DNA of 35,931 nucleotides from Rhodobacter capsulatus. Its GTDB lineage: Bacteria > Pseudomonadota > Alphaproteobacteria > Rhodobacterales > Rhodobacteraceae. A model generated the notes under the pieces. That model was not told the DNA's origin. It saw only the letters and a program-made list of their open reading frames with translations, and did no database searches. The translations under genes were made by a program, and so were the position numbers. Shown here one piece after another: positions 9,841 through 30,703 of this stretch (its first letter is position 1; each line of letters starts with the position of its first letter). The stretch covers positions 1 to 35,931 of the forward strand of contig NZ_SWJZ01000097.1 in assembly GCF_005144475.1 (NCBI RefSeq), in the 5' to 3' direction.

Positions 9841-12183
9841 TCAGGCGCTGCGGCGCGACACGAACAGCGCCGGGCGGGGGGCCTCGACCACCGGCGGGCG
9901 CGGCGCCCAGGTCTCCTCGCGCTGCAGCTGGAAGGTCGCCACGGCCTCGGCCAGCGCCGTCGCCTCGCCCTGCAACGAGCGCACCGCGGCATTGGTCTCC
10001 TCGAAGACGGCGGCGTTTTGCTGCGTCGTGCGGTCGAGTTCCGTCGTCGCATTCGAGATCTCGGTGATCCCGGTCGCGGTCTCCTGCGAGGCGGTGACGA
10101 TCTCGGCGATCTTTTGCGCCACATCCTCGACCCCGGCAACAATTTCGCGCAGCGCTTGACCGGAATCATGCACCAGCCCGACGCCGCGGTTGACGTTGCT
10201 CGACGCGGTCTCGATCAGCCGGGCGATCTCGCGCGCGGCTTCCGAAGACCGCTGTGCCAGCGCCCGCACCTCCGACGCGACGACGGCAAAGCCGCGCCCC
10301 GCATCGCCCGCCCGCGCGGCTTCCACCCCGGCGTTCAGCGCCAGAAGGTTGGTCTGGAAGGCGATGTCGTCGATCACCTGCAGGATGCGCCCGATCGCCT
10401 CGGACGAAGCCTTGATCTCGTCCATCGCCGAAACCGCCCGCGACACCACCTGATGCCCGGCCCCGGCGCGGCTCGAGATTTCGGTCACCGCGCTGCGGGC
10501 GGTCTGCGCCGAATTCGCCGCCGAACGAACCGTGGCCGACATCTGTTCCAGCGCCGAAGCGGTCTGTTCCAGCATCGCCGCGTTGCGTTCCGACCGTCGC
10601 GCCAGATCGTCGGCCGCCCCGGCGATCTCGCGTGCCGAGGTGTCGACGGCGGTCGCGGAAACCGAAATGTCGCCCAGCGTGCCGGTCAGGCTTTCGGTGG
10701 TGCGGTTCATCGTCTCCGCAATCTCGGCGAAGATGCCGTGGAAACGGGTGGGCATGCGGTGGGTCAGATCGCGCGCGGCAAGGCGTTCCAACGCCACCCG
10801 CACGGCGGTCAGCCCGTCGTCCGCCGCCTCGCCGATCCGGTTCATCCCGGCGCAGAGATCGGCGAAGACGCCGGTCTTGTCGTCGGTGCGCAGCCGGCGC
10901 GAAAAATCGCCCTCGGCACAGGCGGCCACCACGGCGGCGATCTCCTCGGCCGCGGCATGTTCGCGCGCCTGGGCGGCGGCGGCGGCGGCGCGTTCGGCCT
11001 CGGCCTGACGGGCCCGTTCCGCCATCTCGGCGCGTTCCTGCGCGGCGGTCGCGATCCGGGCCTGCGCCGCGCGCTCGGCGGCGGCGGCACTTTCCGCCTC
11101 GAGCCGCTGGCGATCAAGGATCGTGGTCCGGAAGCTTTCGAGCGCCGCCCCGATCGAGCGCACTTCGCTGACCCGGGCGTCGGGGACGGTGATGTCCGTG
11201 CGCCCCTCGGCCAGCTCCTGCACCGCCAGCGTCACCGCGCGCAACGGCGTCACCGTGGCGCGGAATAGCCGCACGGCCGAGACCCCGAGCACCAGCATCC
11301 CGATCCCGCCCGCCAGAAGCATCAGAATGTAGCCGCGCATCTTCGCCGCATCGGTCGTCGCCGTCATCTGCCGGACATCGGCCGCAAGACCGTCGCGCAG
11401 CGCGGCAAGCGCCAGCGGCATCGCGTCATAACTGTCGTCGCAGGCGCGGGTGATCGCGTCGACCTGCCGCGCAAGATCGGCATATTGGTGGAAGGCGTCC
11501 TGATATTCCGTCAGCTTCGCCAGCGTCCGCTCCCGGTGTTGCGGCGAGACGAACATCGTTTCGGGATAGGATTTGAAGGTCTCGATTTCCTTGTCGAGCT
11601 TTTCGATGTATTTCGGATCGAGACGCATGATGAAGTCTTTTTCGGCGCGTCGCATCTTCAGCAACGTCACCTCGACCTTCGGCAGGGCAAGCGCGGCCAC
11701 CATCTTTTCGGCGGCATGCACGGCGGCGCGCAACTGCCCCTCAAGCCCGGAATCCGCATCGAGCCCCAGAACCACCCGGGTATCGGCAAAAATCGCGAAG
11801 CTTTCCTCGTAGCCGTCGAGCAGATCCTGCAGCCCACCGGCGCGGGCGGCGCTTTCGACGAGGTTCATGTCGGTTTCGTGCGCCATCAGCGTCTTCAGCT
11901 GGGCCGATGCCTGCGCGATCTGCTGCGCGTGATCCGTGATCCGCGATTCCTTGCGGTCGATGCGGAACTTCGCCTCGGTGTCGCGCGCCGAAGCCAGAGT
12001 GCGCTCCAGCGTGGCCAGGTCCGCGCTCAGTTGCGAAATCTTCAGACTTTGCTGTTCGGCCCTGCGGTCGACGAGCGCGGAATAGAACACGGTTGCGAAG
12101 ACCGCCGCCGTGCAGACGACGATGACGAGGCCCATGCGGACCAGATAGGACAAAAAGCTGCGGGATATACCTGCGCGTGCCAT
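9841..12183 (-). CDS. Methyl-accepting chemotaxis protein
   Basis: This 780-residue transmembrane receptor has a first membrane helix at about residues 15-36 and a periplasmic helical region at about 37-284. That region contains [14 protein letters not shown], which recalls the helical bimodular (HBM) sensor family. A second membrane helix lies at about 285-306. A HAMP segment, an Ala/Glu-rich coiled coil, a second HAMP-like stretch and the long cytoplasmic signalling hairpin follow. The tip reads [32 protein letters not shown] across its CheA/CheW-binding turn. The start at 12183 is supported by GGAG upstream in TCTTTCGGAGCAACCGC. An upstream extension to 12318 is open but unlikely. The ligand is unknown. 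It lies next to a second receptor on the same strand. Confidence 0.92.
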
Positions 12184-12320
12184 GCGGTTGCTCCGAAAGA
12201 TCGCTTCCGCAAAATCGGCGAAAGGGATTAAGGGCAGGTGAAGCCCCGCGCAGATTGGTAAACTTGTATCTTTCTCTGCGCCGGGGATCGGGTGGGGGAA
12301 GATGCGGCGGGGCGGCATGC

Positions 12321-12343
12321 AAACCCCGGCCCTGCGGCCGGGG
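12321..12343 (-). terminator. Hairpin with short T run after the upstream chemotaxis receptor
   Basis: Arms CCCCGGCC (12324-12331) and GGCCGGGG (12336-12343) enclose a CTGC loop. Read on the minus strand, TTT follows. It lies about 26 bp past the stop of the receptor gene ending at 12370, inside the 186 bp gap between the two receptor genes, so these are probably separate transcription units. Confidence 0.6.
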
Positions 12344-12369
12344 CGCTTGGCGCCGGAACGGGGGGGCGG

Positions 12370-14310
12370 TCAGCCCGCCATCCGCTGGTCCCAGACAGAA
12401 CCGCCCGACCGGCCGGCGATGCGGAAGACGGCGCTGAACTCCTTGAGCGTGCGCGCCTCGTGCAAAAGACCCTGTGTCGCGGCCGAATTTTCCTCGAACA
12501 TCGCGGCGTTGTGCTGCGTCACCTGATCGAGCTGGTTCACCGCCGCCGTCACCTCGGAGATGCCGGAGGATTGCTCGGCCGCGGCACTGGCGATCCCGTC
12601 CAGCAGCCCGTCCAGCTCGGTGACCAGCGTCTCGATCTCGCCCAGCGCCGTGTCCGACCGTGCCGCCAGATCCACCCCTGCGGCGACCTGTCGCGACGAG
12701 GTGTCGATCAAGGCGGCGATCTCGCGCGCGGCTTCGGACGAGCGTTGCGCCAGTGCCCGCACCTCGGAGGCGACGACGGCGAAGCCGCGGCCCGTTTCGC
12801 CCGCCCGCGCCGCCTCGACCCCGGCGTTCAGCGCCAGAAGGTTGGTCTGGAAGGCGATATCGTCGATCACATGGGTGATGCGCGAGATCTTGTCGGAGCT
12901 TTGCGCGATGTCGTCCATCGCCCGTTGCGTCTGCCGCACGACCTCGCGGCCGGTGGCGGTGGTGGCGCGGGTGCGGTTCACCGCCTGCGCCGCAGAGCGC
13001 GCCCCCTCGACCGATTGCGCGACCGAGGCCGCCATCTCGTTCATCGCCGCCGCCGTCTCCTCGAGCGAGGCGGCCTGGGTTTCGGTGCGCCGCCCCAGCT
13101 CCATCGAGGCCGAGCCAAGCTGGCCCGCTTCGGTCTCGACCACCTCGGTCGTCTGCACGATCGAGGCGATCAGCCCCGCGACCTTGTCGATGGCGCCGTT
13201 GAAATCATTGCGCAAACCTTCGTAGGCGGGGGGGAAGGTCTCGGTGATCCGCGCCGTCAGATCGCCCGCCGAAAGCGCCTGCAGGCCCTGCGCCAGCGCC
13301 GAGACGATATTCATCTGCTCGCGCATCTGCGCTTCGCGTTCGGCCTCGGTGCGCTGGCGTTCCGCCTCGCGCTCGCTTTGGCGGGCGGCTTCGGCGCGCT
13401 GCAATTCCGCCTCTGCCTCCTGTTCGCGGCGGCGCAGCGCCTCTTCGCGGTCGCGGGCCTGGGCCTCGGCCTTGGCGATCTCGGTCTCTTGGGCGCGGCG
13501 TTGCCGCTCCAGCTCCGCCTTTTCCGCCAGCGAGGCCCGGAACACTTCCAGCGCCTGCGCCATCTCGCCCACTTCGCCGCGCGCGGTGGTGCAGGGGACC
13601 GGGCTCTCGGTATCGCCGCCGGTCATCTGCCGCATCCGGTCATTCACGGCGCCGAACGGCCCGGTGACCGTGCGCGCCAGCGCCGTCGCCGCCCCGCCCA
13701 GCGCCACCAGCGCCACCGCCATCGCGATCAGCGAGGCGTTGCGCAGATGCGCCAGCGCCGCGGTGATGTCGGTGACATAAGAGCCGGTGCCGACGATCCA
13801 GCCCCAGGGCGCGAAGTCGCGCACGAAGCCGATCTTTTCCTCGGGCGTGTCGTTGCTGTTGGGCTTCTTGAAATGGTAATGCACCTCGCCGCTGCCCGCG
13901 GTCTCGGCGATCTTGATCATCTCGACGAAGATCTTCTTGCCGTAGGGATCGGTGAAGCCGATCTGCGATTTGCCGATCCAGTCGGGCATCGTCGGATGCA
14001 CCAGCATCACCGCCTCGTGGTCGAGCACGTAGAAATAGCCGGATTTGTCGAAGCGCAGCGCGGTCAGGCGCCGGGCGCCCTCGGCACGGGCCTGGTCGGG
14101 GGAAAGCGTGCCCGCCTGCACCTGCGCCTCCAGATCGATCAGAATGCCGATGGCGGTGTCGGTGACGTCGCTGAGGTGCTGTTCGCGCATCTCATAGGCG
14201 TTCGAGACCGCAAAACGCACAAGCGTTTCGGACAGGATGATCAGCGAGAGGGCGGCAAGGGCCACGATCGCATAGATGCGGGCGGAGATTCCGAAGAATT
14301 TGTTTTTCAT
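12370..14310 (-). CDS. Methyl-accepting chemotaxis protein with single-Cache sensor
   Basis: This 646-residue receptor has a membrane helix at about residues 11-32. A periplasmic single-Cache domain (sCache_2 type) follows, with GYFYVLDHEAVMLVHP and later GFVRDFAPWGWIVGTGSYV, the pattern seen in receptors for small carboxylates. A second membrane helix lies near LIAMAVALVALGGAA. HAMP, a coiled coil rich in Arg/Glu/Ala, and the signalling domain follow, the last carrying the [18 protein letters not shown] tip. ATG 14310 is preferred to 14358 because the signal-anchor helix then begins MKNKFFGISARI. The ligand is inferred only by family. Its signalling tip is nearly identical to that of the neighbouring receptor, but the sensors differ. 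Confidence 0.92.
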   Translation of the reverse strand: MKNKFFGISARIYAIVALAALSLIILSETLVRFAVSNAYEMREQHLSDVTDTAIGILIDLEAQVQAGTLSPDQARAEGARRLTALRFDKSGYFYVLDHEAVMLVHPTMPDWIGKSQIGFTDPYGKKIFVEMIKIAETAGSGEVHYHFKKPNSNDTPEEKIGFVRDFAPWGWIVGTGSYVTDITAALAHLRNASLIAMAVALVALGGAATALARTVTGPFGAVNDRMRQMTGGDTESPVPCTTARGEVGEMAQALEVFRASLAEKAELERQRRAQETEIAKAEAQARDREEALRRREQEAEAELQRAEAARQSEREAERQRTEAEREAQMREQMNIVSALAQGLQALSAGDLTARITETFPPAYEGLRNDFNGAIDKVAGLIASIVQTTEVVETEAGQLGSASMELGRRTETQAASLEETAAAMNEMAASVAQSVEGARSAAQAVNRTRATTATGREVVRQTQRAMDDIAQSSDKISRITHVIDDIAFQTNLLALNAGVEAARAGETGRGFAVVASEVRALAQRSSEAAREIAALIDTSSRQVAAGVDLAARSDTALGEIETLVTELDGLLDGIASAAAEQSSGISEVTAAVNQLDQVTQHNAAMFEENSAATQGLLHEARTLKEFSAVFRIAGRSGGSVWDQRMAG

Positions 14311-14559
14311 GGGGCCTTGGAGTCTGGGAAGGTGAAAGCCTGGCCAGGCACGGTACACGACAAGATGGGAAACGGGGCCGGAGTGGAGCCTTCAGTCTGA
14401 CACCCAACTGTCAATTTTCCCTTACGGTTCTGGATTTGTTTTAGCTCAAGTCGATACATCCGGCAGGCGTGGGGGGCCGCCGCCGCGTCGCGCCCGAAGC
14501 GCCGCGGCGGGCGGGGAAAGGCCCCGGAAGCAGGGAAAACCCCCGCAAAAACATCGAGT

Positions 14560-14581
14560 GGAAAGCGGGTTTCCGTTTTTT
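14560..14581 (+). terminator. Terminator-like hairpin with T6
   Basis: GGAAA (14560-14564) pairs with TTTCC (14570-14574), then G and six T. The short stem can be exchanged for a longer pairing with the upstream AAAACCCCCGC. It might be the 3' end of a small plus-strand RNA, since no plus-strand gene precedes it. This is weak evidence. Confidence 0.3.
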
Positions 14582-14729
14582 CGCAACGCTGGAATGTTTT
14601 TGATCGCAGCACGTTTTCCTGGCCATCCCGGCGCGGCGGCAAAGCCGGGCCGGGCGCGGATTTGACCGCGGTTTCGAGGCTGGAAATCGTCCTCAGAGGG
14701 GCCTGCCGCGTCGATTTTCGCACCACCGC

Positions 14730-14751
14730 AAGGGGCCGAAGTGGCCCTTTT
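14730..14751 (+). terminator. Terminator-like hairpin
   Basis: AAGGGGCC (14730-14737) pairs with GGCCCTTT (14743-14750), with one G-T wobble and loop GAAGT, ending in TTTT. It lies in the gene-free region on the plus strand and has no coding sequence upstream of it. Confidence 0.35.
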
Positions 14752-15000
14752 CTGGCGCGCCTTGCCGCGCTGATCTGCTGTTTTTGGCCTCGGACGGCGT
14801 TTTTTGCGCAGGTGTCGGGCCGGATGGGGCGCATATGATGTCGAAGGCGGTCGGATCGATGCCGGATGTCGGCGCGAAATGGCGGGAAAATGCCCGGCAT
14901 TCCGGTTTGGCGTCGTTGTGGCGGGGAATCTGGTCGGGATTATGGTCAGCAATCATGCCGCAACGCTCCGCGCCACCGGGCCGCCGCCGCCGCCGTCCCG

Positions 15001-15033
15001 GAAAGCTTTTGGCAAGCACGTCGAAAAGCTTTC
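15001..15033. promoter_or_regulatory. Paired AAAGCTTT palindromes
   Basis: GAAAGCTTTT (15001-15010) and AAAAGCTTTC (15024-15033) form a perfect 10 bp inverted repeat. Each arm also contains the self-palindromic octamer AAAGCTTT, with centres 23 bp apart, close to two helical turns. This is unexpected in such GC-rich DNA and looks like two half-operators for a dimeric regulator, or a stem-loop. It is 334 bp upstream of the hoxH-like gene. Confidence 0.4.
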
Positions 15034-15366
15034 GGGGGGCAGCGGGCATTTCGTTTGACCCGCCCGGCCTGCTGTCGCAATTTTGATCCATCCCAAGGGA
15101 AGGGTGGAGGATGGAGGGGTTCGGGCCGCGGAGGGCTGCAGATCTTGGAAGATGACGGCGGGGTCAGGGTCGGACACATGGCCCCCGAACCATCGCGTCG
15201 AGACCGGGAGAAATCCCGCGCCGACCCCAGGATCCGCGGCGATCGTGCCTGACCTCTCCATGATCCTCGGCCAAACCTCGGCACCCGGTTCCGTGCCCTG
15301 TGCTCTGCTGATTCTGTTCCGTCGACCCGCGGGCCCGCCGCCTGCCTGCTGCCGCTGAGTGCCCCG

Positions 15367-16881
15367 ATGCTTGCCCTCAAGACTGCTCCCAGTTCCCGGA
15401 TGCCGCCGATCCCGGTCGATGCGGCGGCCCGGCCGGTCTGCCCCGTCCCCGCCCCCGCCCCCGAACGCGAGGGGCAGGGCAGGGTCACGATCCGGCTCGA
15501 TGCGCGCGGACAGATGCAGCAGGTGCAGTTGCAGCTTCTGGAGCATTGCGGCGTCGAGACCTTTCTTGAGGGCCGCGCGATCGCCGACATCCCCGAGGCG
15601 GTGCAGCGGCTGTGCGGTCTGTGTCCGGTCAGCCATCATCTGGCCGCGGTCAAGGCGATGGACCGGATCGCGGGCTATGACCGGCTGACCCCCACGGCGG
15701 AAAAGCTGCGGCGGCTGATGCAATACGGCCAGATCGTGCAAAGCCATGCGGTGCAGCTTTACCATCTGGCCGAGCCGGATCTGCTTCTGGGCTTCGACAG
15801 CGAGCCCGCCCGGCGCGGTCTGGTCGATGTCGCGCGCGCCTTTCCGCAGCTGGCGACCGAGGGTGTGCTGATGCGCCGCTTCGGGCAGGAGGTGGTGCGG
15901 GCGATCACCGGCGGGCGGTTGCGCGGCGCCGGGGCGGTGCCCGGGGGGATGCGGCGCCGGCTGGCGCGCGAGGCCCGCGATCAGCTGCGCGCCGATGTCG
16001 ATCAGGTGATCGACTGGGCGGTGGGCGCGCTGCGGGTGCTGGAACGGCTGCATGGCACCAACCCGGCGTTTTACGACCATCTCGGCGCGGGTGACGGCAA
16101 CCTGCTGGCGCTGGTCGGGCCGTCTGGCGCGGTGGATTTCTACGATGGCCAGCTGCGGGCCCGCGATGCCCGGGGGGGGGCGCTGTTCGACGCCATTCCC
16201 GCCGCGGCCTATCGCGGCGTTCTGGCCGAGCCCTCCGGCCCGGGCGGTCCGCATCTGCGCGCGCTGGGCCCGGAAACGGGCTGGTATCGCGTCGGACCGC
16301 TGGCGCGTTTGCAGGTCTGCGACCTTCTGACCTCCGAGATGGCCGAGACCGAACGGCAACGGCTTCTTGCCCCCGCGGACGGGAAGCCGTTGCACGGATC
16401 GGTGTTCCATCACGGCGCGCGGCTGGTCGAACTGCTGCATGCGGCCGAGCTGATCCGCGACCTTCTGGACGATCCCGACCTTTTGGGCGCCGATCTGATG
16501 GCCGACCGCGGCGCGCCGCAGCGCGAGGCCGTCGGCGTGATCGAGGCGCCGCGCGGCACGCTTTTGCAATGCTACGAGGTCGACGAGGCCGAGCGGGTCC
16601 GCCGCTGCACGCTGCTTTTGTCCACCCGCAACAACAGCCGGGCGATGAATGCGGCGCTGCAGGGGGTGGCGGCGCAATATTGCGACGGCCGCAGCGTCAC
16701 CGAGGATCTGCTGGCCCATATCGAGGTGGCGATCCGCGCCTTTGACCCCTGCCTGTCCTGTGCCGCCCATGCGCTGGGGCAGATGCCGCTGTCGGTCGAG
16801 CTGATCGATGCCGCGGGGGCGGTCGTTTCGGGGCTGCGCCGGGGCGCGGACGGGGGGGTATCATGCTGCGTTCGATCCTAG
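15367..16881 (+). CDS. HoxH-like [NiFe]-hydrogenase large subunit, unpaired
   Basis: The 504-residue product aligns from memory along its whole length with HoxH, the large subunit of soluble NAD-linked (group 3d) [NiFe]-hydrogenases. All four Ni-Fe cysteine ligands are present: C83 and C86 in RLCGLCPVSHH, and C462 and C465 in DPCLSCAAH. A 36-residue tail follows H468, as expected for an enzyme needing C-terminal processing. Other conserved positions differ: the family RIEGHG is REGQG here (34-38), and EAPRGTLLHHY is EAPRGTLLQCY (393-403). No hoxY, hoxU, hoxF or hoxE is nearby. The start is uncertain (ATG 15367 or 15400) and no ribosome binding site is seen. Its end overlaps the HoxW-like gene by 19 bp. 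A run of nine G occurs at 16172-16180 in frame. Role unknown: a relic, a scaffold or a sensor. Confidence 0.82.
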   Translation: MLALKTAPSSRMPPIPVDAAARPVCPVPAPAPEREGQGRVTIRLDARGQMQQVQLQLLEHCGVETFLEGRAIADIPEAVQRLCGLCPVSHHLAAVKAMDRIAGYDRLTPTAEKLRRLMQYGQIVQSHAVQLYHLAEPDLLLGFDSEPARRGLVDVARAFPQLATEGVLMRRFGQEVVRAITGGRLRGAGAVPGGMRRRLAREARDQLRADVDQVIDWAVGALRVLERLHGTNPAFYDHLGAGDGNLLALVGPSGAVDFYDGQLRARDARGGALFDAIPAAAYRGVLAEPSGPGGPHLRALGPETGWYRVGPLARLQVCDLLTSEMAETERQRLLAPADGKPLHGSVFHHGARLVELLHAAELIRDLLDDPDLLGADLMADRGAPQREAVGVIEAPRGTLLQCYEVDEAERVRRCTLLLSTRNNSRAMNAALQGVAAQYCDGRSVTEDLLAHIEVAIRAFDPCLSCAAHALGQMPLSVELIDAAGAVVSGLRRGADGGVSCCVRS

Positions 16882-17408
16882 GGCCGCGTCTGGTCGTCTT
16901 TGCCTGGGGCAACGAAAGCCGCGGCGATGACGCGCTGGGGCCGCGGCTGGCCGCGCGCATCGCGATGGCGGGCTGGAGCCACATCACCCTGATCGAGGAT
17001 GTGCAGCTGCAGGTCGAACATGCGCTTGATCTGGTGGGCCAGGATCTGGCGCTGTTCATCGATGCGGGGATGGGCACGCCCGCGCCCTTCGCCTTCGTGC
17101 AGGCGGTGCCGCGCCGCTTCCTCGGGCCCTCGACCAGCCTTGGCATCGGTCCCGAGGGGGTTCTGGAAGCCTATCGCCAGGTCATGCATGACGAGCCGCC
17201 GCCCGCCTTCGTGCTGTGTCTGCGCGGCGAAAGCTTCGCGCTGGAGGAAGGTCTCAGCGCCACGGCCCGCGCCCATCTGGCAGAGGCCTGGGGGTTTCTG
17301 ATCCCGCTGCTGTCCTGGCCCGGGATCGACCGCTGGCAGGCGGCGCTGACCGGCCCGGCCGAGGATCTGTTCCCCGGCAGCGACGCGCGCCGCTCGGCCG
17401 CCGAGTGA
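16863..17408 (+). CDS. HoxW-like hydrogenase maturation protease (M52)
   Basis: This 181-residue protein belongs to the peptidase M52 family, which cuts the C-terminal tail of a [NiFe]-hydrogenase large subunit once nickel is in place. It has VFAWGNESRGDDALGPRLA with D22/D23, and LFIDAGMG with D67, the two acidic metal-contact regions, and it resembles HoxW more than HupD. The third usual ligand, a His in a T-H-x-L-S/T-P motif, is not seen: the region reads STSLGIGP (90-97). H109 is the nearest His. It starts at ATG 16863 inside the end of the hoxH-like gene, so the two are surely co-translated. The 82 bp to hupT lets it be cotranscribed with the sensor operon. Confidence 0.8.
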   Translation: MLRSILGPRLVVFAWGNESRGDDALGPRLAARIAMAGWSHITLIEDVQLQVEHALDLVGQDLALFIDAGMGTPAPFAFVQAVPRRFLGPSTSLGIGPEGVLEAYRQVMHDEPPPAFVLCLRGESFALEEGLSATARAHLAEAWGFLIPLLSWPGIDRWQAALTGPAEDLFPGSDARRSAAE

Positions 17409-17490
17409 GCCCGCAGGGGCGGGACCGGCTCTCCCCTTGCGCGGGGCTTCGGGCCCGATATGCTGACGCAGCCCCCACCGGAGCCGCGCC

Positions 17491-18879
17491 ATGCCCCGAC
17501 CGCCCGTCAAGGACAGTCCGTCCCTCAAGGACAGTCCGCCCCGTTTCGAACCGGCCGCTCTGGCCGGTCTTCTGCCCGGTCACGCGGCGGGTGATGCGGT
17601 CTGGGTCGACGTGCTTTCGGCCGTCGATCGCACCTATGCGGAACTTGTCGATTATCAGGAACGGCTGGAGCGGCAGAACCACGAGTTGGAAGACCTGCGC
17701 TCCTATCTCGGCTCGATCTTCGCCTCGGTTTCGGATGCGCTGATCGTCGCCTCGCGCGCGGGGGAGGTGCTGGGCACCTCGGCCTCGGTCGAGGCGCTGA
17801 CCGGGCAGGGGGCGGGGGTCTGGCAGGGGCGGCCCTTGTCCGCGCTGTTCGATCCGGCCTCGGGGCCGCGGCTGGATCGCGTGCTGGCCGAGGCGGCGAA
17901 CCGCCGTGCCCCGGTCACGATCGAGGCGGCGCTGCTGGGCCCGAACGGCCCCGCGCCGCTGGAACTTTCCGTCAGCCCGCGGCTGGACGACCGCGACCGG
18001 CTGATCGGCTATGTGCTGACCGGCCGTCCGCTGGGGGAATTGCGCCAGGCCTATTTCGAGCTGGAACGCTCGCATGCGGCGCTGATCGCGGCACAGGCGC
18101 AGCTGGTGCGCAATGAAAAGCTCGCCTCGCTTGGCCGTCTGCTGGCGGGGGTGGCGCATGAGCTGAACAACCCGATTTCCTTCGTTTACGCCAATGCTCA
18201 TGCGATGGAACGCTATGCCGCGAAATTCGAGACCTATTTCGCCGCGGTGCAGGCGGGCGCCTCGCGCGAAGAGCTGGTGGCGCTGCGCGAGAGCCTGAAA
18301 CTGGAACGCGAGGTCGGCAATCTGCGCACCGCGATCGACGGCGCCCGCGACGGCGCCGAGCGGGTGCGCGCCATCGTCGAGGATCTGCGCCGCCTTTCTT
18401 CGGAGGGCACCGGCGCGCAGGTGGCCTTCGATCTGGTCGCCACCGCCGGGGTGGCGGCGGATTGGGTGCGGCGCGGCTCGAAAACCGCGGTGGCGGTCGA
18501 TTTCACCGGCCTTGCCACGCTCGAGGTGATCGGGCGGCCGGGTCATATTCAGCAGGTGGTGATGAATCTGGTGCAAAACGCCCTTGATGCGATGGGTGAT
18601 TTTCAGGACGGCCGCATCCGCATCGAGGCGCGGATCGCGGGCGGGCGGGGCGAACTTGTCGTCTCCGACACCGGGCCGGGCGTGCCCGAGGAGGTGGCGC
18701 CGACGATTTTCGACCCGTTCTTCACCACCAAGGATGTCGGCAAGGGCACCGGGCTTGGCCTGTCGATCAGCGCGAAGATCGTCGAGGAACATGGCGGGCG
18801 GCTCCGGCTTTTGCCCGAAAACCCGCTTGGCGGCGCCTGTTTCGGCTTCGATCTGGCCTTGGCGGGGGCGCCCGCATGA
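17491..18879 (+). CDS. hupT: Sensor histidine kinase HupT
   Basis: HupT is the cytosolic kinase of the H2-sensing system. In R. capsulatus it autophosphorylates, passes phosphate to HupR, and is controlled by HupUV. The 462-residue product has a PAS region at about residues 70-180 and a phosphoacceptor H223 in GVAHELNNPISF. The ATPase domain has the N box (NLVQNALDAMG), DTGPGVP, FDPFFTTK and GTGLGLS. There are no membrane segments, fitting a soluble kinase. Near the N-terminus an 18 bp tandem repeat duplicates SLKDSP-type residues. Published HupT has its His at 217 (from memory), 6 less than here. GGAG precedes ATG 17491, and the stop overlaps the hupU start (ATGA). Confidence 0.95.
   Translation: MPRPPVKDSPSLKDSPPRFEPAALAGLLPGHAAGDAVWVDVLSAVDRTYAELVDYQERLERQNHELEDLRSYLGSIFASVSDALIVASRAGEVLGTSASVEALTGQGAGVWQGRPLSALFDPASGPRLDRVLAEAANRRAPVTIEAALLGPNGPAPLELSVSPRLDDRDRLIGYVLTGRPLGELRQAYFELERSHAALIAAQAQLVRNEKLASLGRLLAGVAHELNNPISFVYANAHAMERYAAKFETYFAAVQAGASREELVALRESLKLEREVGNLRTAIDGARDGAERVRAIVEDLRRLSSEGTGAQVAFDLVATAGVAADWVRRGSKTAVAVDFTGLATLEVIGRPGHIQQVVMNLVQNALDAMGDFQDGRIRIEARIAGGRGELVVSDTGPGVPEEVAPTIFDPFFTTKDVGKGTGLGLSISAKIVEEHGGRLRLLPENPLGGACFGFDLALAGAPA
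17507..17542 (+). repeat. 18 bp tandem duplication within hupT
   Basis: TCAAGGACAGTCCGTCCC (17507-17524) is repeated at 17525-17542 with one base change. It adds six residues to the flexible N-terminus of HupT without changing the frame. Confidence 0.85.
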
Positions 18880-27496: not shown

Positions 27497-27650
27497 AGTG
27501 GAAATAATGCTTCCAAATACATCATAAAAGCGGTAACAAGGTTTCCGAAATTCGCGATATTCCGACTCTCTCGCCGGGTTTTGCCGGTCTGGGGGCTGGA
27601 TCATCATGGGGGCTGAGCGCCCGCGCGAGCCACGGTCTAGGGAGGGACCC

Positions 27651-28283
27651 ATGCCAGCATTCACACCTGAACGGGTGCTCGTTCTGGGCATCGGCAACGT
27701 GCTTTGGGCCGACGAGGGCTTCGGCGTGCGCTGCGTCGAGCGGATGGCCGAAACCCATGCGCTGCCGGCCAATGTCCGGCTGCTCGATGGCGGCACGCAG
27801 GGGCTTTATCTGCTGCCGTTTCTGGAAGAGGCCGAGGCGCTGATCGTCTTTGACGCGGTCGATTTCGGTTTCACCCCCGGCACGCTGGTCACCATGCGCG
27901 ACGACGACGTGCCCGCCTTCATGGGCGCGAAAAAGATGAGCCTGCATCAGACCGGCTTTCAGGACGTGATCGCGACGGCGCAGCTGATGGGCTATTGCCC
28001 GCGCCACATGACGCTGATCGGCTGCCAGCCGGTCGAGCTGGAGGATTACGGCGGCTCTCTGCGCCCCGCCGTGGCCGAGCAGATCGATTTCGCCATCGCC
28101 GAGGCCCTGCGCGAATTGCGCGCCTGGGGGATCGAGGTGACGACGGGCGCGACGATCAGCAACGATCTGCTCGATCCCTCGCTCGCCCGTGACGTCTATG
28201 AACGCGGCCGTCCCACCGAGGACGAGGCCTGCCGGATCGGCGATCACCGCTTCTTCCCCTCGGCCGCCAAGGTCCGCGCCTGA
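27651..28283 (+). CDS. hupD: Hydrogenase maturation protease HupD
   Basis: HupD is the endopeptidase (family M52) that removes the HupL C-terminal tail after nickel insertion. The 210-residue product has [18 protein letters not shown] with E22, VFDAVDFG with D68/D71, and H99 in [11 protein letters not shown], the three nickel-contact regions known from E. coli HybD. All are intact, unlike the HoxW-like protease upstream. ATG 27651 follows GGGAGGG by 3 nt. A frame open from 27606 adds 15 residues without homology. It overlaps hupF by one base (TGATG). Confidence 0.95.
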
Positions 28284-29030: not shown

Positions 29031-29858
29031 ATGGTTTCGAATTTCCACCTGCCCCCCGTCGGCTTCGGTCCCGGTTCGCAAAGCGATGAAGACGAGGAGC
29101 TGGGCTACATGCAGCTTCCCTCCGGCATGCGGACCTATGCGGCGCATCTGCCCGAGGTCGAGGATACCTCGGCCGTCGCCCCGGCGCTGAAGCTGCTCTC
29201 CGACATCGCCGCGGCGGCCGAGGCCTGCGCTTTGGGCGGCATGGCCAGCTTTGACCTTGCGGGGCTGGATGCGCAAAACCGCGCGCTGATTGCGGAAACC
29301 ATGGGGCAGGGCGAGGTCGCGATGAAGATCCGCGGCATCCCGGCCCTGATGGTGCAGGAATCGGTCTTTGCCGGGGTCTGGTCGGTGGCGGGCGCGGGCG
29401 TCGACCGGATCGAGGTGGGCGCGGTGCCCGCCGCGGCGCTGTCGCGCGCGTTCGAGCCCTTCCGCAAGGGTCAGACCGCGCTGCCGCCGCTTGCGGACGG
29501 GGTGGTGAACGCCCCGGCGCTGATCGCGGAACTTTTCGACAAATCCGCGGCTTATGTCGGCGGCGCGGCCGATGTGATCAACCTGACGCTGCTGCCGCAT
29601 ACGGAAGAAGACCTGACGCTGCTCGACACCATGCTGGGCGAGGGCGCGGTGACGATCCTGTCGCGCGGCTATGGCAACTGCCGGATCACCGCGACGGCGA
29701 CGCCGCATGTCTGGCGCGTGCAGTTCTACAATTCGACCGATGCGCTGATCCTGGACACGATCGAGGTGACGGTGATGCCCGAAGTGGCGCTCGCCGCGCG
29801 CGAAGACCTGGAAGATTCGGCGGGCCGCATCCGCGAAGTGCTGGAGGCCATTCGTTGA
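29031..29858 (+). CDS. hupH: HupH, HyaF-family accessory protein
   Basis: This 275-residue protein of the HyaF/HupH family helps make the FeS-containing small subunit ready for assembly. It shows the family features PPVGFGPGSQ near the start, IPALMVQESVFAGVW in the middle, and the closing domain with GYGNCRITATATPHVWRVQFYNS. No membrane segments or signal peptide are seen. The stop overlaps the likely hupJ TTG start (TTGA). Its exact biochemical activity is not known. Confidence 0.92.
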   Translation: MVSNFHLPPVGFGPGSQSDEDEELGYMQLPSGMRTYAAHLPEVEDTSAVAPALKLLSDIAAAAEACALGGMASFDLAGLDAQNRALIAETMGQGEVAMKIRGIPALMVQESVFAGVWSVAGAGVDRIEVGAVPAAALSRAFEPFRKGQTALPPLADGVVNAPALIAELFDKSAAYVGGAADVINLTLLPHTEEDLTLLDTMLGEGAVTILSRGYGNCRITATATPHVWRVQFYNSTDALILDTIEVTVMPEVALAAREDLEDSAGRIREVLEAIR

Positions 29859-30703
29859 GCGGGCCGTTGAGCGGGGCAAATGCCCCCCGCGCCGGGTTCG
29901 AGGGCTCTTACCTTGGCGCCAATGACCGGATTTCCGATCTGGCGATCATGGAATGCAAGATCTGCTGGACGCCCTACGACCCCGCCTCGGGCGACGAGTT
30001 CCGGCAGGTTCTGCCCGGCACGCCCTTCACCAAACTGCCCGAGGACTGGCATTGCCCGACCTGCGATGCGCCGAAAGCGCAGTTCATCGTGCAGACCGAT
30101 CCCGGCGCCCCCGCGCTTTTGGAACAGAACCGCGTCGATGCGCAGGTGGTCGCGCTGGTCGCCGATTTCCGCGAGATCTGGCATGCGAAAATGCGCGACG
30201 TGCCCCTGGTGAACAAGGCCCTGTCGATCGAGGCGGTGGGCTTTCGCAGCCATGCGGGCCGCGGCCTTGGCGTGCTTGTCAGCCCGTGGTTCATGAACCT
30301 GATCCTGCTGCCCGCCGAGGGCGAGGATTGGTCGGGCCTGATCCCCGGCGCCAAGGAGGACGTGCATTTCCCCTCGGGCACCTATGAATTCATCCACAAC
30401 CGGCGCGAAATGGTGGGCGGCTACAAGGCCTGCTCGCTTTGCTCGACGATGGGCGATTTCCAGACCCAGATGCAGGCGGTCGATCTGGCGCGCGCGGTGA
30501 TGATCGAGCTGTTCAAGGCGGAAAACCGCGCCGAAACCGACCGGGCGGCGGAAATCCGCGCCACCCGCGCGGCGGATCTGGCGGCGGTCGAGGCCGCCGA
30601 AGCCGAGGCCGCCGCCGCCGAGGCGCGGGTCGAAGCCCTGGCGCAGCCGACGCGGCGGCGGCTGATCTCGGCCGGGCTGGCCGGCGAGGGCGAGGCGGAA
30701 TGA
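29855..30703 (+). CDS. hupJ: HupJ, rubredoxin fused to HybE-like chaperone
   Basis: This 282-residue product is a fusion. Residues 33-80 are a rubredoxin with C34, C37, C67 and C70 (ECKICWTPYDP and CPTCDAP). Residues about 90-235 are a HybE-type hydrogenase assembly domain with ACSLCSTMGDFQTQMQAVDLA. The last 45 residues are an Ala/Glu-rich, probably helical tail. In other bacteria the two parts are separate genes (hoxR/hupI and hoxT/hupJ). Rubredoxins of this type are linked to FeS-cluster assembly when oxygen is present. The start is unsure: TTG 29855 (overlapping the hupH stop) or TTG 29867. ATG 29948 would remove the conserved FEGSYLG leader. Confidence 0.9.
   Translation: MSGPLSGANAPRAGFEGSYLGANDRISDLAIMECKICWTPYDPASGDEFRQVLPGTPFTKLPEDWHCPTCDAPKAQFIVQTDPGAPALLEQNRVDAQVVALVADFREIWHAKMRDVPLVNKALSIEAVGFRSHAGRGLGVLVSPWFMNLILLPAEGEDWSGLIPGAKEDVHFPSGTYEFIHNRREMVGGYKACSLCSTMGDFQTQMQAVDLARAVMIELFKAENRAETDRAAEIRATRAADLAAVEAAEAEAAAAEARVEALAQPTRRRLISAGLAGEGEAE

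Follow-up and report, generated by a model that had tools for sequence, protein, structure and literature searches.

A hydrogenase large subunit and its maturation protease retained upstream of hupTUV in Rhodobacter capsulatus after loss of their partner subunits

What does a [NiFe]-hydrogenase large subunit do once the rest of its enzyme is gone? The question is raised by a 35,931-nucleotide stretch of Rhodobacter capsulatus DNA (contig NZ_SWJZ01000097.1 of assembly GCF_005144475.1, positions 1 to 35,931; here, the window), in which a hoxH-like large-subunit gene and a hoxW-like maturation protease gene (together, hoxHW) precede the H2-sensor operon hupTUV. Genome comparisons showed hoxHW to be the remainder of an operon for a group 3d NAD-reducing hydrogenase, hoxF-U-Y-H-W, located directly upstream of hupTUV in Rhodobacter, and codon analyses showed both genes to be intact and under purifying selection after the loss of their partners. 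In the reading that we favor, with moderate confidence, this former hydrogenase pair has been retained for a second, non-catalytic role, perhaps in nickel or cofactor handling.

The identity of the two genes is clear. In a profile search, the open reading frame (ORF) at 15367-16881 (504 aa) matched Pfam NiFeSe_Hases, and residues 10-468 of its product aligned at 418 bits with the solved HoxH structure of an NAD-reducing hydrogenase (5xf9), the top of 68 matches. The two CxxC pairs of group 3d HoxH are both present (C83/C86 and C462/C465), the EAPRG segment is intact in the alignment, and a C-terminal processing tail follows, as expected from an earlier note, made from the DNA sequence, that had described a full-length group 3 large subunit with four Cys ligands. 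The second ORF (16863-17408, 181 aa), also on the plus strand, overlaps the first by 19 bp, and the pair runs in the same direction into hupTUV, hupT starting at 17491; both points agree with that description. HoxW scored 43.0 bits (E 4.2e-11) against the NCBIfam model TIGR00072 (hydrogenase maturation protease), slightly under the model cutoff of 47.45, and gave no Pfam match at E 0.01. It is 67-97% identical to the protease encoded after hoxH in five related Rhodobacter loci, 97% identical to a sixth, and HoxW from the complete operon of R. aestuarii shares 67% identity with it, which bears out its assignment as a HoxW-type protease.

The partners are missing from the genome, which consists of 170 contigs and is estimated to be 99.98% complete. 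Three PF01058 proteins were found in it: one encoded on contig 58, which was taken as NuoB, and HupU and HupS, each of which adjoins its own large subunit gene. HoxY of R. aestuarii used as a query had no match in the window genome, DSM 1710, an SB1003-like genome, R. viridis or R. maris; the two of seven genomes that matched were TJ_12, with a fragment, and R. aestuarii itself. The corresponding HoxF query revealed no true HoxF in the six genomes that carry hoxHW without intact hoxFUY (orphan genomes), TJ_12 having a fragment of its start. In each orphan genome this query gave two strong matches (~240 bits, 36-40% identity) plus weak ones, and R. aestuarii has the same two diaphorase-type matches, and HoxF besides; by our own reading, these two are probably NuoF and a formate-dehydrogenase-type diaphorase. 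HoxU had no match within the window, in a search confined to the surroundings of the locus. The earlier observation that no HoxY lies near the pair extends to the whole genome, as it does for HoxF, and the proposal of a third hydrogenase whose partners lie elsewhere is not borne out by the same searches.

HoxH itself has changed at its N-terminus. The R-x-E-G-H-G motif of group 3d enzymes is degenerate in five of the six orphan HoxH proteins, that of the window among them, TJ_12 being the one that keeps the motif. The Glu of this motif, which we take to be the proton gate of [NiFe]-hydrogenases, is retained in the alignment by HoxH of the window, DSM 1710 and R. viridis, and is replaced by Ala in the SB1003-like genome and by Gly in R. 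maris. The WSYMKFP segment is also among the lost conserved sites. Window HoxH is 93% identical to that of DSM 1710 and 91% identical to that of the SB1003-like genome, which was taken as SB1003 partly from the position of its ChIP motif; we call these three genomes R. capsulatus-type, the genome collection treating them as separate species.

Deprived of HoxY and HoxF, and its N-terminal motif degraded, HoxH would have no route for electron transfer from H2 to NAD, and judging from these losses the hoxHW product is very unlikely to be a hydrogenase. Two R. capsulatus regulon papers list or describe hoxH as an NAD-reducing hydrogenase gene (PMC9603517 and, in its Table 2, PMC5359404), a label that the genome evidence contradicts: the enzyme is gone. 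Could HoxH still work as a hydrogenase by pairing with HupU or another small subunit? The intact four Cys ligands and EAPRG segment, and the description in print, speak for this; the failure to find HoxY and HoxF in the genome, the degraded motif, in which Ala stands opposite the Glu position in the SB1003-like genome, and the large subunits that HupU and HupS have alongside make it exceedingly improbable.

Relatives of R. capsulatus record how this state arose. HoxW was found in 7 of 18 Rhodobacter genomes, and the same seven carry a HoxH of at least 59% identity. In all seven, hoxHW lies directly upstream of hupTUV; six are orphan. Whatever the merit of the earlier suggestion that the pair may be a regulator acting with HupU, the H2 sensor does not always come with it: hoxHW is absent from five other fetched Rhodobacter loci (L036-L040), all of which have hupTUV. 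R. aestuarii (L029) has an intact operon, in the order nikR, nikKMNQO, hoxF-U-Y-H-W, hupTUV. TJ_12 (L028) shares this gene framework, but between nikO and hoxH it has only pieces of hoxF (residues 1-57), hoxU (179-223) and hoxY (76-154), the three longest hox pieces showing 81-83% DNA identity, and R. maris (L030) keeps a piece of hoxY (88-138). In R. capsulatus and R. viridis only hoxHW is left: upstream of hoxH in the R. viridis locus and in those of the window, DSM 1710 and the SB1003-like genome, in-frame queries detected no hoxFUY remnants at E 0.05. Weak upstream matches from partly out-of-frame hoxFUY queries were no better than reversed-sequence controls and were discarded. A nickel-type uptake operon (nikR plus CbiM/CbiQ/ABC-type genes) lies directly upstream of the hox genes at L028 2591-6661, L029 320-4368 and L030 2881-6893; the R. 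capsulatus-type and R. viridis loci have a chemotaxis-receptor gene there instead. The nik names were derived from Pfam matches (NikR_C, DUF4198, CbiM, CbiQ and ABC_tran) on the TJ_12 and R. maris homologues, nikN having no match.

When the search with R. aestuarii HoxH was widened beyond the genus, it matched 13 genomes of 394 from the family, 8 of 390 from the order and 32 of 398 from the phylum; these sets overlap, and each includes the window genome. HoxY was present in the fetched stretch of 44 of the 45 loci tested from other genera (12 + 33); the exception, L085, has a fetched stretch that starts ~300 bases before hoxH, and the 45 loci leave aside two more genomes that matched, as well as one second copy. 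In this sample, orphan hoxHW was seen only in Rhodobacter.

The number of losses depends on where the tree is rooted. An unrooted hupTUV tree with ultrafast bootstrap grouped TJ_12 with R. aestuarii (support 100) and these with R. maris (96), which with an ordinary root would require hoxFUY to have been lost three times, hoxHW surviving on every occasion. The HoxH data, outgroups included, rejected that rooting (approximately unbiased [AU] test, p 0.003), and rejected neither a basal R. aestuarii (one loss) nor a basal TJ_12 + R. aestuarii (two losses). TJ_12 and R. aestuarii are also grouped by the HoxW tree (97), and a basal R. aestuarii is contrary to both the hupTUV and HoxW trees. By our reading the four tested HoxH topologies differ only in where the outgroup attaches to the Rhodobacter part, a point that fast orphan branches make unreliable. 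Taken together, the trees point to probably two or more losses of hoxFUY. Compared with HoxH from two genomes of other families of the class (L062, L063), that of R. aestuarii shows 68-70% identity, versus 55-59% to HoxH in other genera of its own family. The Rhodobacter hox operon may have been acquired by horizontal transfer.

Both remaining genes are under purifying selection. Ratios of nonsynonymous to synonymous substitution rates (omega) were estimated by maximum likelihood with our own codon model (F3x4, branch classes; not PAML). Across the three R. capsulatus-type genomes and R. viridis, omega was 0.203 for hoxH and 0.101 for hoxW, next to 0.083, 0.057 and 0.082 for hupT, hupU and hupV, and neutrality (omega = 1) was rejected for all five genes, with twice the log-likelihood difference (2dlnL) at 116-361. 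Among the three R. capsulatus-type genomes alone, values were 0.225 for hoxH (2dlnL versus neutral 75.4), 0.066 for hoxW (58.8), and 0.075, 0.059 and 0.090 for hupT, hupU and hupV. Pairwise NG86 estimates within these three were 0.31-0.40 (hoxH), 0.08-0.12 (hoxW) and 0.06-0.17 (hupT/U/V); comparisons with R. viridis gave 0.30, 0.21 and 0.11-0.14. Since omega is far below 1, both frames are real genes, and since hoxFUY is absent from all four genomes, R. viridis included, their divergence by parsimony follows its loss. The frames are open in all six orphan pairs. Neither neutral evolution nor a disrupted frame, the marks of a pseudogene, was thus found. The earlier suggestion of a relic of a lost soluble hydrogenase stood as to origin, with the full set at the same place in R. 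aestuarii and broken pieces in TJ_12 and R. maris. In the sense of a dead pseudogene it found no support, omega being well below 1 for both genes in three genomes, with hoxH partly relaxed.

Constraint is unevenly distributed along HoxH. In the four genomes, omega was 0.63 for residues 1-32, a value compatible with neutrality (2dlnL 1.6), then 0.30 (33-75), 0.07 (76-200), 0.27 (201-300), 0.16 (301-400), 0.19 (401-472) and 0.049 (473-504). Tail residues 469-488, which lie outside the hoxW overlap, had an omega of 0.014, with 1 variable residue of 20, and form the most constrained segment in the R. capsulatus/viridis clade. A second measure used 168 HoxH columns with at least 95% conservation across 46 other HoxH proteins (45 with HoxY shown or annotated, R. 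aestuarii included, plus that of L085; the remote L088 and L089 were left out). Window HoxH keeps 11 of 23 such columns in residues 1-75 (R. aestuarii numbering), 45 of 55 in 76-200, 9 of 14 in 201-300, 24 of 32 in 301-400, 22 of 31 in 401-470 and 12 of 13 in 471-500. Fisher p values for the N-terminus versus the tail and versus 76-200 were 0.011 and 0.005 for the window, 0.004 and 0.0002 for the SB1003-like genome, 0.006 and 0.006 for R. maris, and 0.06 and 0.014 for R. viridis.

Published data for SB1003 show that hoxH is transcribed under redox control and apart from hupTU. In Table 2 of PMC5359404, a RegA chromatin immunoprecipitation (ChIP) peak spans 833738-834931, and hoxH and hoxW, changed 2.96-fold and 2.05-fold, are marked as RegA-repressed. 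The RegA motif listed in that paper occurs once in the SB1003-like locus (L031), at 834361; the hoxH ATG (834400) is 39 nt further on. Expression of hoxH is also indirectly activated by FnrL and repressed by RedB, with signs opposite to those for hupT and hupU (PMC9603517). The main text of PMC5643017 mentions neither hoxH nor hoxW.

The 1 kb upstream of hoxH had been called non-coding. This was right in that no hoxFUY remnant and no conserved gene was recognized there; the stretch is not empty, as the RegA ChIP peak covers part of its SB1003 homolog. It contains a 42-nt core, starting CCATCCCAAGGGAAGGGTGG, that is present in the three R. capsulatus-type genomes and R. viridis and is followed by a predicted long hairpin. 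The hoxH leader folds somewhat better than shuffled sequences (z -2.26; 3 of 200 shuffles as good). Its alignment of four sequences has almost no covariation, and its 74% identity to R. viridis does not exceed the level at 4-fold sites (0.67-0.76), only the 42-nt core standing out; given these two properties, no riboswitch is claimed. In 18 Rhodobacter genomes, long matches to the leader were found only at hoxH of the three R. capsulatus-type genomes and R. viridis, and three other matches, short and weak, lay at different sites in R. viridis and R. aestuarii. Rfam yielded no family at gathering score over the whole window; sub-threshold matches in the 1-kb stretch were treated as chance, four of the five being to families of kinds unexpected here. 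A scan of 14300-17700 for sigma-70-type promoters found none.

The most serious rival to retention for a second role is that hoxHW is simply a slowly decaying relic, two remaining genes of an operon on its way out that have so far escaped damage. The visible decay of hoxFUY in TJ_12 and R. maris fits this account, as do the near-neutral HoxH residues 1-32 and the loss of the RxEGHG motif, the WSYMKFP segment and a conserved His of HoxW. Omega of hoxH is ~2.5 to 4 times that of hupT/U/V, which points to relaxation of part of the protein. It is also raised in the R. capsulatus/viridis clade: 0.18 versus 0.09 in the rest of a tree with the six-family outgroups less one (2dlnL 24.7), a rough contrast with many long branches outside the clade and family HoxH f045 left out of the codon models, and 0.18 versus 0.13 within the seven Rhodobacter (2dlnL 5.3). 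Against slow decay stand the rejection of neutrality for both genes in three genomes that all lack hoxFUY, a constraint on HoxW about equal to that on hupT/U/V, the open frames of all six orphan pairs and the RegA-bound promoter region in SB1003. We consider slow decay unlikely, though to be taken seriously.

If hoxHW instead serves a second, non-catalytic role, HoxH would most probably still be loaded with nickel and Fe(CN)2CO by the Hyp proteins and act as a HoxW-handled protein whose loading state matters, either as a nickel or cofactor reservoir or as a regulatory protein of hydrogen and redox metabolism. Constraint is strongest on the segment with the first Cys pair (76-200), the C-terminal tail and the protease, the RxEGHG-bearing N-terminal part having been released. 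Unprocessed large subunit and protease have been reported to form stable complexes that need cofactor synthesis, in a study of Hyd-5 (PMC5299533), and such complexes make a HoxH-HoxW complex plausible as a working unit.

The protease has an unusual metal site in R. capsulatus. According to PMC2670836, the likely metal ligands of HybD are Glu16, Asp62 and His93. HoxW has D23 and D67, and Leu at position 93, where 48 of 51 aligned HoxW proteins have His; the exceptions are only the three R. capsulatus-type genomes. The equivalence to HybD His93 was established by alignment only, including the HycI-family protease of the hup cluster (SLH) and, weakly, 5zby (E 0.05). Among solved structures, the 5zby HycI protease was the only, weak, match related to HoxW by sequence, and HoxW of Cupriavidus necator as a query gave only an unrelated weak match. 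The loss of His suggests that in R. capsulatus cleavage by HoxW is slow or absent and that binding is the conserved activity. A bolder version, which we regard as rather doubtful, is that R. capsulatus HoxW is a non-cleaving partner that binds uncut, cofactor-loaded HoxH, the locked pair reporting the availability of nickel or of the [NiFe] cofactor as a sensor or reservoir.

Alternatively, only HoxW might be needed, for instance as a maturation factor for another hydrogenase, with hoxH loosely kept as its upstream gene. Omega of HoxW (0.07-0.11), near that of hupT/U/V and alike between clades (0.106 versus 0.111) while HoxH is relaxed, is what one would then expect. HupV, however, ends at its Cys motif without a tail, and the hup cluster has another HycI-family protease gene at 27606-28283, from its position presumably hupD. 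R. capsulatus HoxW moreover lacks the metal-site His, and HoxH residues 76-200 and the tail have omega values of 0.07 and 0.05. We regard this alternative as improbable.

Several further points, together with the relaxation of HoxH, weigh against retention for a second role. The low omega of the tail rests on 20 codons in four genomes, and over seven lineages the same residues give an unexceptional 0.12. In the Hyd-5 study, binding of large subunit and protease is independent of the C-terminal extension (PMC5299533), which weakens a mechanism based on tail binding. The metal-site His is kept in R. viridis, R. maris and TJ_12, so a non-cleaving HoxW is not a general rule. By the column order of the RegA table (PMC5359404), hoxH changed in PY only and hoxW in RCV only, and the exact SB1003 RegA motif is absent from the window, DSM 1710 (L026) and R. 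viridis (L027) loci. AlphaFold models of HoxH and HoxW were of unusably low confidence (mean pLDDT 57.7 and 39.9) and contribute nothing. In the literature, we found no experiment showing production of the hoxHW protein or a mutant phenotype; no title or abstract described an orphan HoxH, full texts having been searched for given terms only.

The features of the locus are listed in Table 1. Two consecutive methyl-accepting chemotaxis genes on the minus strand occupy 9841-14358, upstream of hoxHW. At 29855-30700, a single ORF fuses a rubredoxin domain with a HybE-type [NiFe]-hydrogenase chaperone domain.

Table 1. Coordinates of hoxHW and neighboring features in the window.
Feature	Position	Strand	Basis
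hoxH-like gene (504 aa), group 3d-type [NiFe]-hydrogenase large subunit without small subunit	15367..16881	+	Pfam, 5xf9 match, purifying selection
Degenerate remnant of R-x-E-G-H-G, residues 33-38 (E-R-E-G-Q-G)	15463..15480	+	Alignments
C83 and C86, first NiFe-site cysteine pair (RLCGLCPVSHH)	15613..15624	+	Alignment, 5xf9 match
C462 and C465, second NiFe-site cysteine pair (DPCLSCAAH)	16750..16761	+	Alignment, 5xf9 match
36-residue C-terminal tail after His468; by homology the part removed by the protease	16771..16878	+	Omega of residues 469-488
hoxW-like gene (181 aa), hydrogenase maturation protease family	16863..17408	+	TIGR00072, identity to relatives, omega 0.07-0.10
HoxW codon 93, Leu where 48/51 aligned HoxW have His (HybD His93 equivalent)	17139..17141	+	Alignment
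Upstream intergenic region; no detectable hoxFUY remnants	14359..15366	+	Homologous stretch partly under SB1003 RegA ChIP peak
42-nt near-invariant core, 41/42 positions identical in four genomes	15088..15129	+	Alignment; no Rfam family
hupT (context)	17491..18879	+	ORF and profile matches
hupU (context); its product and two others are the PF01058 proteins found in this genome	18876..19874	+	Profile matches

If the pair is functional, the catalytic subunit of a hydrogenase and the protease that goes with it have outlived the enzyme, in a phototroph that is genetically tractable. Related species include examples of the intact, the decaying and the orphan state, and non-catalytic roles of large subunits and maturation proteases become directly testable. 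Should the locked pair prove real, it would be a new kind of sensor or reservoir, made from a hydrogenase maturation intermediate.

Three known systems offer comparisons. Group 3d HoxFUYH with HoxW, as in C. necator (pHG1, L043), Hydrogenophilus (5xf9) and R. aestuarii, resembles hoxHW in HoxH sequence, the four Cys, the tail and the adjacent HoxW-type gene, and the R. aestuarii operon also in its position beside hupTUV; hoxHW differs in that neither HoxY nor HoxF was found, RxEGHG and WSYMKFP are lost, and the HoxH N-terminus evolves fast. HydB with HydD/HyaD (PMC5299533) likewise combines a tailed large subunit and a maturation protease as a unit, but that unit matures a complete enzyme, which hoxHW lacks, and the tail is dispensable for binding. 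HupUV with the kinase HupT shares the locus and the [NiFe] large-subunit superfamily with hoxHW; unlike HoxH, HupV has no tail and has HupU alongside, and hupTUV occurs without hoxHW in the five other Rhodobacter loci examined.

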